Made by a program: the position numbers and the translations under genes | Notes under the pieces: generated by a model | Told to the model about the DNA's origin: nothing | The model's input: only the letters and a program-made list of their open reading frames with translations | Databases searched by the model: none | Assembly (NCBI GenBank): GCA_024685775.1 | Contig: JAIKVL010000029.1 | Coordinates: forward strand, 1-49,671 | Direction: 5' to 3' | DNA: 49,671 nt | Origin: Clostridia bacterium | GTDB lineage: Bacteria; Bacillota; Clostridia; Christensenellales; CAG-1252 | In this document: piece by piece, positions 5,813-9,988 of the stretch | Numbering within the stretch: position 1 is the stretch's first letter | Layout of the letters: each line of letters begins with the position of its first letter

Positions 5813-6075
5813 AGCCCGCGAACGCATATAAAGGCGACTACCGATAGGGATTTTATGAAAAATTAAAATTCGATGATAATTGCACTTTCGAGCGGTCAAC
5901 AAATTAGGATTTGGAGAATATCCGAGTCCTTTTTGTTTGTAACACGTGAATTTTGCGGGAAATAATAAATTTTTTAAAACTTGTAATAAAACTCTTGACA
6001 AGTGCACTTGTAATGCCATACAATACAAGTGCAATCGGAAATTGCAAATAATTATCATGTCGGAGGAATAGAAAA
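5813..6075 (+). promoter_or_regulatory. Leader region of the SnoaL-like gene with promoter and operators
   Basis: No gene is seen in this AT-rich stretch. The promoter is TTGACA (5995-6000) and TACAAT (6019-6024) with 18 bp between. The 15-mer TAAAACTTGTAATAA at 5975-5989 sits 5 bp before the -35. TGCACTTGTAATG (6003-6015) and CAATACAAGTGCA (6021-6033) form a 13-bp inverted repeat with one mismatch pair and a 5-bp spacer, covering the -10. The palindrome ACAAGTGCACTTGT (5998-6011) overlaps the -35. These look like binding sites for the Rrf2 regulator at 6914. GGAGGA precedes the start at 6076. Confidence 0.7.
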
Positions 6076-6846
6076 ATGACAAACATTGAAAAAGCAAAGG
6101 CTCTTATCGGAACTTTCAATTCGGGAGATCTCAAATTGGCGGACAGTATGCTTGCCGAAAAGTACACGCAACACAACTTGGCGTTTGCGGACGGAAGAGA
6201 CGCTTTTATCGCCGCAGTCGCAGGATTGCAACAAGCACCCGTGAAAACTACGGTCAACGTAGTGCGAGAGTTTGCAGATGGCGAGTATGTAGTGCTACAG
6301 GTCGTATATAACTTTGCGGGCGCGGGCGAACAAATCAATTTCGACGTGTTCCGTTTTGAAAACGGTTTGATCGCAGAGCATTGGGATAATGCAACGTCCA
6401 AAGCACCGGCAAATCCGAGCGGACACACCCAAATCGACGGCGATACGGCTATTATTCCCAACGGAAATACCGAGAAAACGAGAGCCATTGTTTCGGGCTT
6501 CATCGGTGATGTGCTTCGTGGTGAGAACCCCGATAAACTCACTTCTTATTTTGATGGGGACAAGTATATTCAACACAATATCGCCATTGCAGACGGATTG
6601 TCCGGTTTAGGCGCAGCACTCGGCGAGATGGCGAAAGCGGGCATTCAAATGATCTATAACCGCACGTTCAAAGTTCTTGCTTGCGGCAACTATGCGCTTG
6701 GTATGAGCGAAGGCACGTTCGGAGGCAAACCCACCGTTTACTATGATCTTTTCAGAGTGGAAAACGGTTTCATTGCCGAGCATTGGGACGTTATGGAAGA
6801 AACAATGCCGAAAGAAAAATGGGCGAACCTGAACGGGAAGTTCTAA
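6076..6846 (+). CDS. Tandem SnoaL-like (NTF2 fold) protein
   Basis: The protein has 256 residues built from two copies of a small alpha-beta barrel domain. Domain 1 (about 1-115) contains YTQHNLAFADGRDAF and later ENGLIAEHWD. Domain 2 (about 130-250) contains YIQHNIAIADGLSGL and ENGFIAEHWD. This HN-plus-AEHWD pattern is typical of bacterial SnoaL-like proteins, which often bind small hydrophobic molecules or act as isomerases or hydrolases. No substrate can be assigned. There is no signal peptide, so it is cytosolic. It has its own promoter with strong operator-like repeats and lies just upstream of an Rrf2 regulator gene, which suggests regulated, stress- or ligand-responsive expression. Base composition is more AT-rich than in the genes outside the block. 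Confidence 0.82.
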   Translation: MTNIEKAKALIGTFNSGDLKLADSMLAEKYTQHNLAFADGRDAFIAAVAGLQQAPVKTTVNVVREFADGEYVVLQVVYNFAGAGEQINFDVFRFENGLIAEHWDNATSKAPANPSGHTQIDGDTAIIPNGNTEKTRAIVSGFIGDVLRGENPDKLTSYFDGDKYIQHNIAIADGLSGLGAALGEMAKAGIQMIYNRTFKVLACGNYALGMSEGTFGGKPTVYYDLFRVENGFIAEHWDVMEETMPKEKWANLNGKF

Positions 6847-6892
6847 AACTTGTAATAAGCCAGGTGACATCTTCGTCTTTTTGTGATATACT
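6844..6892 (+). promoter_or_regulatory. Promoter and operator of the Rrf2-sirtuin operon
   Basis: The -35 is GTGACA (6864-6869) and the -10 is TATACT (6887-6892), 17 bp apart. The 15-mer TAAAACTTGTAATAA (6844-6858) begins inside the TAA stop of the SnoaL-like gene and sits 5 bp before the -35. Both its sequence and its distance match the site at 5975-5989. A GGAGG Shine-Dalgarno at about 6902 precedes ATG 6914. Confidence 0.7.
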
Positions 6893-6913
6893 ATTTATGA
6901 CGGAGGTGTTATT

Positions 6914-7351
6914 ATGCAAATAACGAGTAAGTTTACCATTGGCGTACATATCATCGCCGCTTTGGAATATTTCAAAAACGACTATAACGTGACAAGTGGA
7001 TTCCTTGCGGGAAGCGTCGGTGCCAATCCCGTTCTTATTCGCACGATCATGAGCGAATTAAAAGACGCCGGATTTATCAAAATCAGTCAAGGGAAAACGG
7101 GCATCTGCCTTGCTAAACCGATAGAAGAAATCTCTTTTTACGATATTTACAAAGCGCTCGATTGCGTGGAGGAAAACGGACTGTTCCATTTCCACGAGAA
7201 CCCGAATATGAATTGCCCCGTTGGAAAGAACATTCATAAGACAATGGACGAGCGCCTTGCCGCTATTCAGGATTCAATGGAATCGGAAATGAAGAAAATA
7301 TCGGTCGGCGACGTGTATAAAGACATCAAAAAAGAAATGAACTTGCAATGA
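6914..7351 (+). CDS. Rrf2 family transcriptional regulator (YwnA-like)
   Basis: The protein has 145 residues. A winged helix covers about residues 1-70 (IGVHIIAALEYF, then NPVLIRTIMSELKDAGFI as the recognition part and QGKTGICLAKP as the wing). A coiled dimerisation tail follows. It has cysteines at 65, 84 and 101. The last lies in NMNCPVGKNI, a motif typical of YwnA-like members rather than the three close cysteines that hold an iron-sulfur cluster in IscR or NsrR. A thiol-based redox or electrophile response is therefore possible but not shown. It is the first gene of a tight operon ending in macrodomain and sirtuin genes and probably controls both its own promoter and that of the SnoaL-like gene. 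Confidence 0.88.
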   Translation: MQITSKFTIGVHIIAALEYFKNDYNVTSGFLAGSVGANPVLIRTIMSELKDAGFIKISQGKTGICLAKPIEEISFYDIYKALDCVEENGLFHFHENPNMNCPVGKNIHKTMDERLAAIQDSMESEMKKISVGDVYKDIKKEMNLQ

Positions 7352-7360
7352 GGTGAAAAG

Positions 7361-7762
7361 ATGAACAAAGTCGTAGAAGAACTGAAAAAGGTCGGAGTGT
7401 TTTATATCGCCACCGTTGAGGGCGATCAACCGAGAGTTCGCCCATTCTCTTCGGTCGCGGAGTTCGACGGAAACGCCTATATTTGTTGCGGAAATCATAA
7501 GGAGATATATAAACAGATATCAGCAAATCCAAAAATCGAACTTTGCGGAATGTATGACGGCGGGACGTGGCTTCGCGTATCCGCCGTTGCCGTGGAAGAT
7601 AACCGCGCGGAAGTACAACAAGCGGTACTCGATGATCCCACGGGACCGAAACAACTCTATAAAGCGGGCGACGGACGGTTTGTGACCTATCGTTTGACCG
7701 AGATCAAAGCATTGAAGTATAACTTCTACGCCGCGCCTGAAAAGATAAAAGAAAATGAGTGA
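7361..7762 (+). CDS. Pyridoxamine 5'-phosphate oxidase-fold flavoprotein
   Basis: The protein has 133 residues and matches the small split-barrel FMN-binding family. It opens with a helix and a strand (VGVFYIATVEGDQPRVRPF), typical of the flavin pocket, then AYICCGNHKEIYKQISANPKIELC. Such proteins bind FMN, heme or F420 and commonly act in redox or detoxification reactions. The exact substrate is unknown, and I would not call it PdxH. It starts nine bases after the Rrf2 stop and overlaps the next gene, so it belongs to the same operon. Within a redox-linked sirtuin operon it may supply an oxidoreductase activity. Confidence 0.82.
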   Translation: MNKVVEELKKVGVFYIATVEGDQPRVRPFSSVAEFDGNAYICCGNHKEIYKQISANPKIELCGMYDGGTWLRVSAVAVEDNRAEVQQAVLDDPTGPKQLYKAGDGRFVTYRLTEIKALKYNFYAAPEKIKENE

Positions 7763-7778
7763 TAAAGGAATCGGTGAA

Positions 7779-8372
7779 ATGAGCGAAAAAACGAAAATGC
7801 TATCAGGAGAACTGTACGACCCGAGCGACGAAGAATTGCTTGCGCTACGAAAGAAGTGCCACGGTCTTTGTTTGAAATATAGTCAAACCACGGAAGAAGA
7901 CGAGGAGATTAGAGAATCCTTGTTGAAAGAAATGGGTATTGTGCGGGGAAAGAACGTCTATTTGCAGGGACCGATCTATTTTGACTACGGCTGTTTTACT
8001 TCCATAGGGGAAAACACCTATGCGAATTTCAATCTGACCGTCTTAGACGTCTGTCCCGTTACGATAGGAAAGAACGTTTTTATGGGAACGGGCGTCAGCA
8101 TAGTTGCGCCGCTTCATCCTATGAAGTATCAAGAGCGGAATATATTTATGAATGACAAAGGGATAATGACCGACAAGGAATACGGAAAGCCGATCACGAT
8201 AGAGGATAATTGTTGGATCGCTTCAAACGTTACGATATGCGGCGGAGTAACGATCGGCGCGGGCTCGGTAATAGGGGCGGGCTCGGTCGTAACGAGATCT
8301 ATTCCGGCAAATTCGTTTGCGGCGGGGAATCCCTGTAAGGTCATTCGTTCGATCGACAACAACGAATTATAA
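7779..8372 (+). CDS. Maltose/galactoside O-acetyltransferase-like hexapeptide transferase
   Basis: The protein has about 197 residues. An N-terminal Mac-type helical segment (MLSGELYDPSDEELLALRKK) is followed by left-handed beta-helix hexapeptide repeats (IGENTYANFNLTVLDV, CPVTIGKNVFMGTGV, GVTIGAGSVIGAGSVVTRSIP). The catalytic histidine is in APLHPM. The family uses acetyl-CoA to acetylate sugars or other acceptors. The ATG at 7755 overlaps the preceding gene but has a weak Shine-Dalgarno, while the ATG at 7779 has AAAGGA nine bases before it, so I prefer the latter. Its presence between a flavoprotein and an ADP-ribose system is unusual. The physiological acceptor is not evident. Confidence 0.85.
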   Translation: MSEKTKMLSGELYDPSDEELLALRKKCHGLCLKYSQTTEEDEEIRESLLKEMGIVRGKNVYLQGPIYFDYGCFTSIGENTYANFNLTVLDVCPVTIGKNVFMGTGVSIVAPLHPMKYQERNIFMNDKGIMTDKEYGKPITIEDNCWIASNVTICGGVTIGAGSVIGAGSVVTRSIPANSFAAGNPCKVIRSIDNNEL

Positions 8373-8385
8373 GGCGGATAAGAAA

Positions 8386-9129
8386 ATGGTCGGCACAAAG
8401 TGGTGCATCGAATATCTGAAAAAATATAACGGGATCGACGCTTTGCCCGATATGCCGGACGAGGCGCTTTTCCGCGCGCTTCAAAATATCACGATGCCCT
8501 ATGCGTTGTCCGAGGAGTTTTATCAAAAACAGGATGCCGTACTGCAAGAGATACTATCTCGTAAAGATATTACGAACGTCGCCGATTTTCCGGATGGTAT
8601 CTCTCTTTGGAAAGGTGATATTACTCTTCTGAAAGCGGATGCTATCGTCAATGCTTGCAACAATAAAATGCTCGGCTGTTTCGTGCCGGGACATCATTGT
8701 ATCGACAATGCCATTCATTCTTTTGCCGGTTTGCAAGTCAGACGGGATATGATGGCGACAATGAAAGAACAAGGTCATGACGAGCCTAACGGCGATTGCA
8801 AAGTGACGAAAGGATATAATTTGCCGTCCGAATACATTTTTCACACGGTCGGTCCGATTTATTCGGGGAAGAAACAAGACGAGATCGACCTTGCTGCCTG
8901 CTACCGTGCGTGTCTGAAAAAAGCGGACGAGATGGAATTGACTTCCCTCGTCTTTTGCTGTTTGTCCACAGGTATCTTTGGGTATCCGATAGAGGAAGCG
9001 ACGTCCATAGCGATACGAGAAGTCAAGACTTATTTGTCGGAGAAAAACAAGAATCTTCGTAAAGTGGTATTCAACGTGTTCAGAGGACAGGATTATGACG
9101 TATATCAAAGACTACTCGCAAGAGATTGA
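8386..9129 (+). CDS. Zinc-type macrodomain, protein ADP-ribose hydrolase
   Basis: The protein has 247 residues. The first about 75 residues are a helical cap (KWCIEYLKKYNGIDALPDMPDE), as in sirtuin-linked macrodomains. The macro fold follows: ISLWKGDITLLKADAIVNACN, then the hallmark zinc segment GCFVPGHHCIDNAIH (about residues 97-111) and later CCLSTGIFGYPIEEAT. Enzymes of this class remove ADP-ribose from protein side chains modified by the partner sirtuin. The start is ATG 8386, preceded by AAGGCGG; codons further upstream belong to the end of the acetyltransferase gene read in another frame. It overlaps the sirtuin gene by 35 bases, which suggests coupled translation. Confidence 0.93.
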   Translation: MVGTKWCIEYLKKYNGIDALPDMPDEALFRALQNITMPYALSEEFYQKQDAVLQEILSRKDITNVADFPDGISLWKGDITLLKADAIVNACNNKMLGCFVPGHHCIDNAIHSFAGLQVRRDMMATMKEQGHDEPNGDCKVTKGYNLPSEYIFHTVGPIYSGKKQDEIDLAACYRACLKKADEMELTSLVFCCLSTGIFGYPIEEATSIAIREVKTYLSEKNKNLRKVVFNVFRGQDYDVYQRLLARD

Positions 9130-9988
9130 AAAGATAAAGGTAGCCATAAACGGAGCGGACGCTGTATTGATCGGCGCAGGCGCGGGACTATCCACCTCCG
9201 CAGGATTGACGTATAGCGGAGAACGATTTGAGCGGTATTTCTTCGACTTTGCTGAAAAATACGGCATAACCGATATATATTCGGGCGGGTTTTATCCCTT
9301 TTCCGATGAAGAAACTCGTTGGGCGTGGTGGGCAAGGCATATCTATTTCAATAGATATATCGACGCGCCGAAACCCGTTTATAGCAAATTGTATTCCCTT
9401 GTCCAAAACAAGGAGTATTTCGTTTTAACGACCAACGTCGATCATCAATTCCAACGAGCGGGATTCGACAAGAATCGTTTGTTTTATACGCAGGGCGATT
9501 ATGGGTTGTTCCAAAGTACGAATCCAAGAATAAAAAAGACGTTTGACAACGAAGAATGGACGATGAAAGCGATGGCGGCGCAAGGCTTTGTCCGTGACGA
9601 AAACGGCGTGTTTACCGTGCCGGAAGACAAAAGAATCTCAATGCGCATCCCTACCGAACTGATACCGCGCTGTCCGATAACAAACGGTGCGGTAACAATG
9701 AATCTCCGCTCGGATGATACCTTTGTCGAAGATGAAGGTTGGCACGAAGCAAGTCACCGTTATGCGGAGTTTGTCGGGAAATGCGCCGACAAGAAGATCG
9801 TTTTTCTCGAACTCGGCGTCGGTGGCAATACGCCCGTGATTATCAAATACCCGTTTTGGCGTATGACCTATGCAAACAAAAACGCAACCTATATTTGCAT
9901 TAACTACGGCGAGGCGATATGCCCTGACCAAATCAAGGAGAGATCTATTTGCATTGATGCGGATATAGAAGCGGTACTATCCAAATAA
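9095..9988 (+). CDS. Class M sirtuin (SirTM), putative protein ADP-ribosyltransferase
   Basis: The protein has 297 residues. The NAD-binding motif GAGAGLSTSAG is at residues 27-37. The catalytic region reads TTNVDHQF (N114) and YTQGDYG (Q133). Ordinary deacetylase sirtuins have HG at the second place; Gln there, 19 residues after the Asn, is the class M arrangement. Class M sirtuins ADP-ribosylate a lipoylated GcvH-L carrier in pathogens; no such carrier or lipoate ligase lies nearby, so the target here is unknown. In the small zinc module only one cysteine of the expected CPxCG remains (RCPITNG, about residue 190). The start has GAGGA seven bases upstream. This is the last gene of the operon and copy 3 of the palindromic element follows. 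Confidence 0.92.
   Translation: MTYIKDYSQEIEKIKVAINGADAVLIGAGAGLSTSAGLTYSGERFERYFFDFAEKYGITDIYSGGFYPFSDEETRWAWWARHIYFNRYIDAPKPVYSKLYSLVQNKEYFVLTTNVDHQFQRAGFDKNRLFYTQGDYGLFQSTNPRIKKTFDNEEWTMKAMAAQGFVRDENGVFTVPEDKRISMRIPTELIPRCPITNGAVTMNLRSDDTFVEDEGWHEASHRYAEFVGKCADKKIVFLELGVGGNTPVIIKYPFWRMTYANKNATYICINYGEAICPDQIKERSICIDADIEAVLSK

Follow-up and report, generated by a model that had tools for sequence, protein, structure and literature searches.

Two copies of a 15-bp element, TAAAACTTGTAATAA, in 49,671 nucleotides of contig sequence from an uncultured Clostridia bacterium (the whole stretch analysed, hereafter the window) each form, with high probability, the left arm of an operator for the Rrf2 family protein encoded at position 6914, a putative single-cysteine repressor of its own operon and of a preceding SnoaL-like gene, from which an electrophile or oxidant would relieve both. 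The sites, their placement in the promoters, their conservation and the conserved cysteine of the protein can be read from the sequence and from comparison with related genomes. The element had been reported in a sequence-only reading of the same DNA at 5975-5989 and 6844-6858, in both cases exactly 5 bp before a -35 hexamer, and both its coordinates and this spacing (-35 hexamers starting at 5995 and 6864) were borne out. The features of the locus are as follows:

5975-5989, + strand: first copy of the 15-mer (left arm of O1 plus flanks)
5982-6000, + strand: candidate operator O1, TGTAA-N9-TGACA; its right arm is the -35 box of the SnoaL promoter
5995-6024, + strand: SnoaL promoter, TTGACA-18-TACAAT (11/12 consensus)
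6009-6027, + strand: candidate operator O2, TGTAA-N9-ATACA, over the spacer and -10 box of the SnoaL promoter
6076-6846, + strand: SnoaL-like protein of 256 aa (Pfam SnoaL_2, 2.3e-15)
6844-6858, + strand: second copy of the 15-mer (left arm of O3), starting with the SnoaL stop codon TAA (6844-6846)
6851-6869, + strand: candidate operator O3, TGTAA-N9-TGACA; its right arm is the -35 box of the Rrf2 promoter
6864-6892, + strand: Rrf2 promoter, GTGACA-17-TATACT (10/12 consensus)
6914-7351, + strand: Rrf2 regulator, YwnA/SifR-like (PF02082, 91 bits; Cys101 in HENPNMNCPVG)
7361-7762, + strand: pyridoxamine 5'-phosphate oxidase-like (PNPOx-like) protein (Pfam PNPOx_N, 1.3e-7)
7755-8372, + strand: hexapeptide-repeat acetyltransferase (by Pfam; none of the NCBIfam matches listed exceeds its cut-off)
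8386-9129, + strand: Zn-Macro type protein-ADP-ribose hydrolase (PDB 8rsi, 2.1e-64; PRK04143, 280.8 bits against a cut-off of 272)
9095-9988, + strand: SirTM-like sirtuin (PDB 5a3a, 1.9e-48; no Pfam match at 0.001)

The repeated 15-mer and the candidate operators

An exact search of the genome (1,705,931 bases, 97% complete), which the sequence-only reading had proposed, returned exactly two copies of TAAAACTTGTAATAA and hence no random scatter, and the exact 15-mer was not found in 60 relatives, among them those carrying the orthologous loci L013 and L014. The identity of the two copies is in itself little evidence, since 53 exact 15-mers are repeated in the window (+ strand, overlapping 15-mers counted separately), against 1 to 14 in 20 first-order Markov simulations. 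When the two promoters were aligned with those of the close loci L012-L015, the conserved unit was found to be AACTTGTAA with the following bases through the -35 box, not the whole 15-mer. At the Rrf2 promoter, AACTTGTAA and its place before the -35 box were kept in five of five close loci; at the SnoaL promoter the same placement was seen in four of five, and the fifth (L015) has AACCTGTAA instead, a replacement found at one of the ten promoters aligned. Because only the core is kept in orthologous loci and the exact 15-mer is absent from relatives, the outer letters of the element are, on this comparison, partly a coincidence.

All three candidate operators are one mismatch away from TGTAA-N9-TTACA, which PMC9218516, the only paper that a literature search returned for the operator in this form, describes as recognised by two Rrf2 repressors, HypR and SifR, and to which SifR binding was measured there by anisotropy (Ka about 1e8 per molar). 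Deviations in the window lie in the right arms, which read TGACA in O1 and O3 and ATACA in O2. The equal distance from both 15-mers to the -35 hexamer is explained by the -35 box supplying the right half-site TGACA; part of the operator match is likewise forced, the -35 box requiring TGACA in its own right. Described as a site upstream of the -35 box, the 15-mer was placed correctly, but it makes up only the left half of an inverted repeat that the -35 box completes on the right. The inventory of one site per promoter named two of the three candidate sites and overlooked O2, which lies over the -10 box of the SnoaL promoter at a distance of 27 bp from O1.

The core TGTAA-N9-TGACA of O1 was kept in five of five close loci. 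Wider inverted repeats of 25 bp surround O1 (5979-6003, ACTTGTA-N11-GACAAGT) and O2 (6006-6030, ACTTGTA-N11-TACAAGT, with perfect 7-bp arms), and these two are the best matches to the 25-bp ACTTGTA repeat in the genome. The wider repeat of O3 (6848-6872, ACTTGTA-N11-GACATCT) is weak beyond the core, agreeing at 11 of 14 positions. With two sites, the SnoaL promoter may be controlled more tightly than that of the regulator. As a more general lesson of the case, a compelling repeat may be one half of a known operator, with the -35 box as the other half.

Distribution of the sites within and between genomes

Of 396 genomes surveyed from the order, 40 had Rrf2 homologues. Among the homology matches extracted as loci (with G078:C30 added later as L106), a site with at most one mismatch was present within 120 bp upstream at 25 of 26 Rrf2 loci, 17 of these sites being perfect, against 0.29 expected from dinucleotide shuffles of these upstream regions, the species being related and the loci hence not independent events. 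The exception, L048, has a two-mismatch site only. The count of 26 leaves out L004, L005 and L031, which share their contigs with L013, L014 and L015, together with eight weak matches or fragments (L008-L011 and L051-L054). In three of these eight a site lies no more than 120 bp from the inferred start (L008 with one mismatch, L011 and L051 perfect), and no site was found within this distance at L009, L010, L052, L053 and L054.

SnoaL orthologues were found in 12 of 396 genomes (E up to 1e-20). At 13 of 13 SnoaL loci, comprising those of the 12 genomes and L012 and again belonging to related species, a site was located within 150 bp, and 12 of the loci had two sites (0.15 and 0 expected, respectively, from Markov simulations). 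The spacing of the pair was 26-27, 42 or 47 bp, depending on lineage. Ten of the 12 SnoaL genomes had an Rrf2 match, compared to 40 of 396 overall; the two without were G366, where SnoaL is at a contig end, and G202. As judged by eye, SnoaL and Rrf2 promoters of one lineage tend to carry matching arms: ACTTGTAAT prevails in the group of the window and ATGTAAC in L035-L037 and L059-L062, with L037 and L061 among the exceptions.

Collectively, these data support both the earlier proposal that a single regulator serves the two promoters, which have in common a HypR/SifR-like motif at one mismatch, and the choice of the adjacent Rrf2 protein, whose own homologue loci and the SnoaL loci carry the motif and whose gene co-occurs with SnoaL across genomes. 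Judged in this way, the adjacent Rrf2 is very probably the regulator of both promoters.

The genome-wide regulon that the earlier reading had hoped to define is not indicated. The 19-bp core with at most one mismatch occurs 27 times in the genome, that is at the three window sites and 24 others, compared to 18 times for the pattern read backwards. The 25-bp repeat was also tried as a route to a wide regulon and rejected, as its matches with up to three mismatches were near background (23 against 26 backwards). Seven of the 24 non-window core sites were viewed in context, and none was convincing: three overlap promoter-like TTGACA sequences (C34:5361, C16:19501 and C7:35785), three are inside long predicted ORFs and one (C25:28324) is ambiguous. 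The promoters at C34:5361-5379 (L092) and C16:19501-19519 (L094) are very similar to each other, have TGTAA-N9-TGACA over the -35 box and precede ORFs with hydrophobic N-termini (by eye).

The Rrf2 protein and its probable mode of action

Membership of the protein in the Rrf2 family is clear from its PF02082 score, given a Pfam gathering score of 30. Its best relatives in the PDB were 1ylf (5.7e-33), with which it has the stretch NPV.IR.IMS.LK.AG in common, and ywnA 1xd7 (1.3e-21). Cys101 was present in 26 of 26 comparable Rrf2 proteins (27 rows, of which the incomplete L050 was left out). By its sequence, including HENPNMNC at the position of the class motif and the class operator at one mismatch in each of the three window sites, we assign the protein to the YwnA/SifR single-cysteine type.

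SifR of Streptococcus pneumoniae and YwnA of Bacillus subtilis resemble the window system in the TGTAA-N9-TTACA operator and in the cysteine within an HxxPN.C motif. Gene content offers two further likenesses. The link of SifR and YwnA to YwnB-like genes (ywnB being a direct SifR target according to PMC9218516) has a counterpart in loci related to the window, where 5 of 25 Rrf2 loci had a YwnB-like neighbour, and the SnoaL gene of the window recalls a SnoaL2-family gene of S. pneumoniae in an operon described as partly SifR-regulated (PMC9732360). In contrast to SifR and YwnA, the window combines SnoaL with PNPOx, acetyltransferase, Zn-Macro and SirTM genes, has two tandem candidate operators at the SnoaL promoter, and carries M where HxxPNPxC, the cysteine motif given for the class in PMC9218516, has its second P. 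HypR of Staphylococcus aureus likewise shares the core operator, as quoted in PMC9218516, and a weak NCBIfam match. Unlike HypR, which has the cysteine pair C33/C99, the window protein has no cysteine near position 33; identification as HypR was rejected, with 53.4 bits against a cut-off of 180 and cysteines only at 65, 84 and 101.

With SifR as the model for binding, repression and chemical signal, we infer the following course of events. An Rrf2 dimer would bind TGTAA-N9-TTACA-like sites, covering the -35 box from O3 at its own promoter and occupying the tandem O1 (-35) and O2 (spacer and -10) at the SnoaL promoter, and the bound protein would exclude RNA polymerase. A quinone-like electrophile or an oxidant would then modify Cys101, quinones at the equivalent cysteine being the signal reported for SifR, and the repressor would be released. 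Release would induce the five-gene operon (Rrf2, PNPOx-like, acetyltransferase, Zn-Macro, SirTM) and, along with it, the SnoaL-like protein.

It is improbable that another regulator uses these sites, with the adjacent Rrf2 as a bystander, although two observations point that way. The genome G202 (L063/L119) has SnoaL and macro/SirTM genes with an HxlR-family gene divergent to SnoaL; a search there found no Rrf2 of the window type, only one weak Rrf2-domain match (C14), and its SnoaL gene has one site instead of two, a perfect TGTAA-N9-TTACA. The motif, therefore, need not mean Rrf2, and a swap of regulator from Rrf2 to HxlR is possible in G202. Additionally, the genome of the window encodes a second Rrf2 protein (C37:30283). 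Against these stand the motif upstream of nearly all homologue loci of the adjacent Rrf2 and the absence of any HxlR family match in the window's own genome (G000, 97% complete), on which ground HxlR was rejected as regulator here. The C37 protein, for its part, is without the HxxPN.C motif (by eye), and its gene has no such site upstream, the best match having five mismatches.

Activation, which the sequence-only reading had considered alongside repression, is more doubtful still. Rrf2 bound upstream of the -35 box could recruit polymerase, and the 15-mers themselves do lie upstream; the complete operators, however, include the -35 box and, for O2, the -10 box, a placement that argues for repression, and SifR, which uses the same class of operator, is a repressor (PMC9218516). 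Least probable of all is that an AT-rich promoter stretch was copied once, or coincides, with no regulator involved, since, common as repeated 15-mers are in the window, the core sequence and geometry are kept where the DNA farther upstream has diverged, and the core recurs at every SnoaL locus and all but one of the Rrf2 loci.

The probable operon and its SirTM/Zn-Macro pair

Judging by gene spacing, the five genes from Rrf2 to SirTM probably form one operon under the control of the proposed Rrf2 repressor. The assignment of the fourth gene to the Zn-Macro type is based on similarity to 8rsi, a Zn-Macro structure, and on a PRK04143 score over the cut-off; that of the predicted SirTM is based on similarity to 5a3a, deposited with the SirTM paper (PDB entries), and on the overlap of its gene with the macro gene. 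Overlapping genes and best PDB matches of this kind liken the window to a lone SirTM/Zn-Macro pair, and no lipoate ligase or GcvH-L was found in the operon by Pfam scan or among the NCBIfam matches listed. Unlike a lone pair, the window operon is headed by a redox-type Rrf2 gene.

A survey of neighbouring genes at 25 Rrf2 loci and at L119, where Rrf2 is absent, revealed a macrodomain and/or SirTM gene near Rrf2 in at least 14 of the 25, a lower bound given that several stretches end early (e.g. L013, L107, L114, L115 and L120). In L101, L110 and L113, Rrf2 is followed by other redox-looking genes (FMN-reductase-like by eye, PNPOx-like and YwnB-like, respectively), and SirTM lies beyond them. 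What follows Rrf2 seems to be a modular cassette.

Compared in 100-base steps, the window and L013 are 74-84% identical over SnoaL and Rrf2 (5950-7350); between 7350 and about 8650, where L013 ends, the figure is 98-100% (PNPOx, acetyltransferase and the start of the macro gene). The abrupt, mosaic-like change of identity where Rrf2 meets PNPOx would come either from a chimeric assembly or from a recent exchange of the cassette downstream. Similarity to L012-L015 at the nucleotide level starts shortly before the SnoaL promoter (5841-5970); it stops at 7390, just past Rrf2, in L012 and close to where the sirtuin gene finishes (9968) in L015. With such limits, seen at both ends in L015, the block behaves like an exchangeable island.

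SirTM/Zn-Macro has been tied to oxidative stress (PMC4518038, PMC11490716), and its physiological role is called elusive in PMC11490716. A literature search, mostly outside subscription journals, turned up nothing on control of SirTM/Zn-Macro by a SifR-type Rrf2, and the relevant passages of PMC12710355 treat rrf2, sirtuin and macrodomain in separate places. We lean slightly towards the view that, throughout this order of Clostridia, lone SirTM/Zn-Macro pairs have a SifR-type electrophile sensor as their dedicated switch, through which quinone-like or oxidant stress would call up reversible ADP-ribosylation together with the SnoaL-like enzyme. The operator class was already known, and what is new and of most use is the connection between a SifR-type sensor and the SirTM/Zn-Macro pair: a conserved redox-type repressor with defined candidate operators in front of the pair would provide a concrete class of inducers to test.
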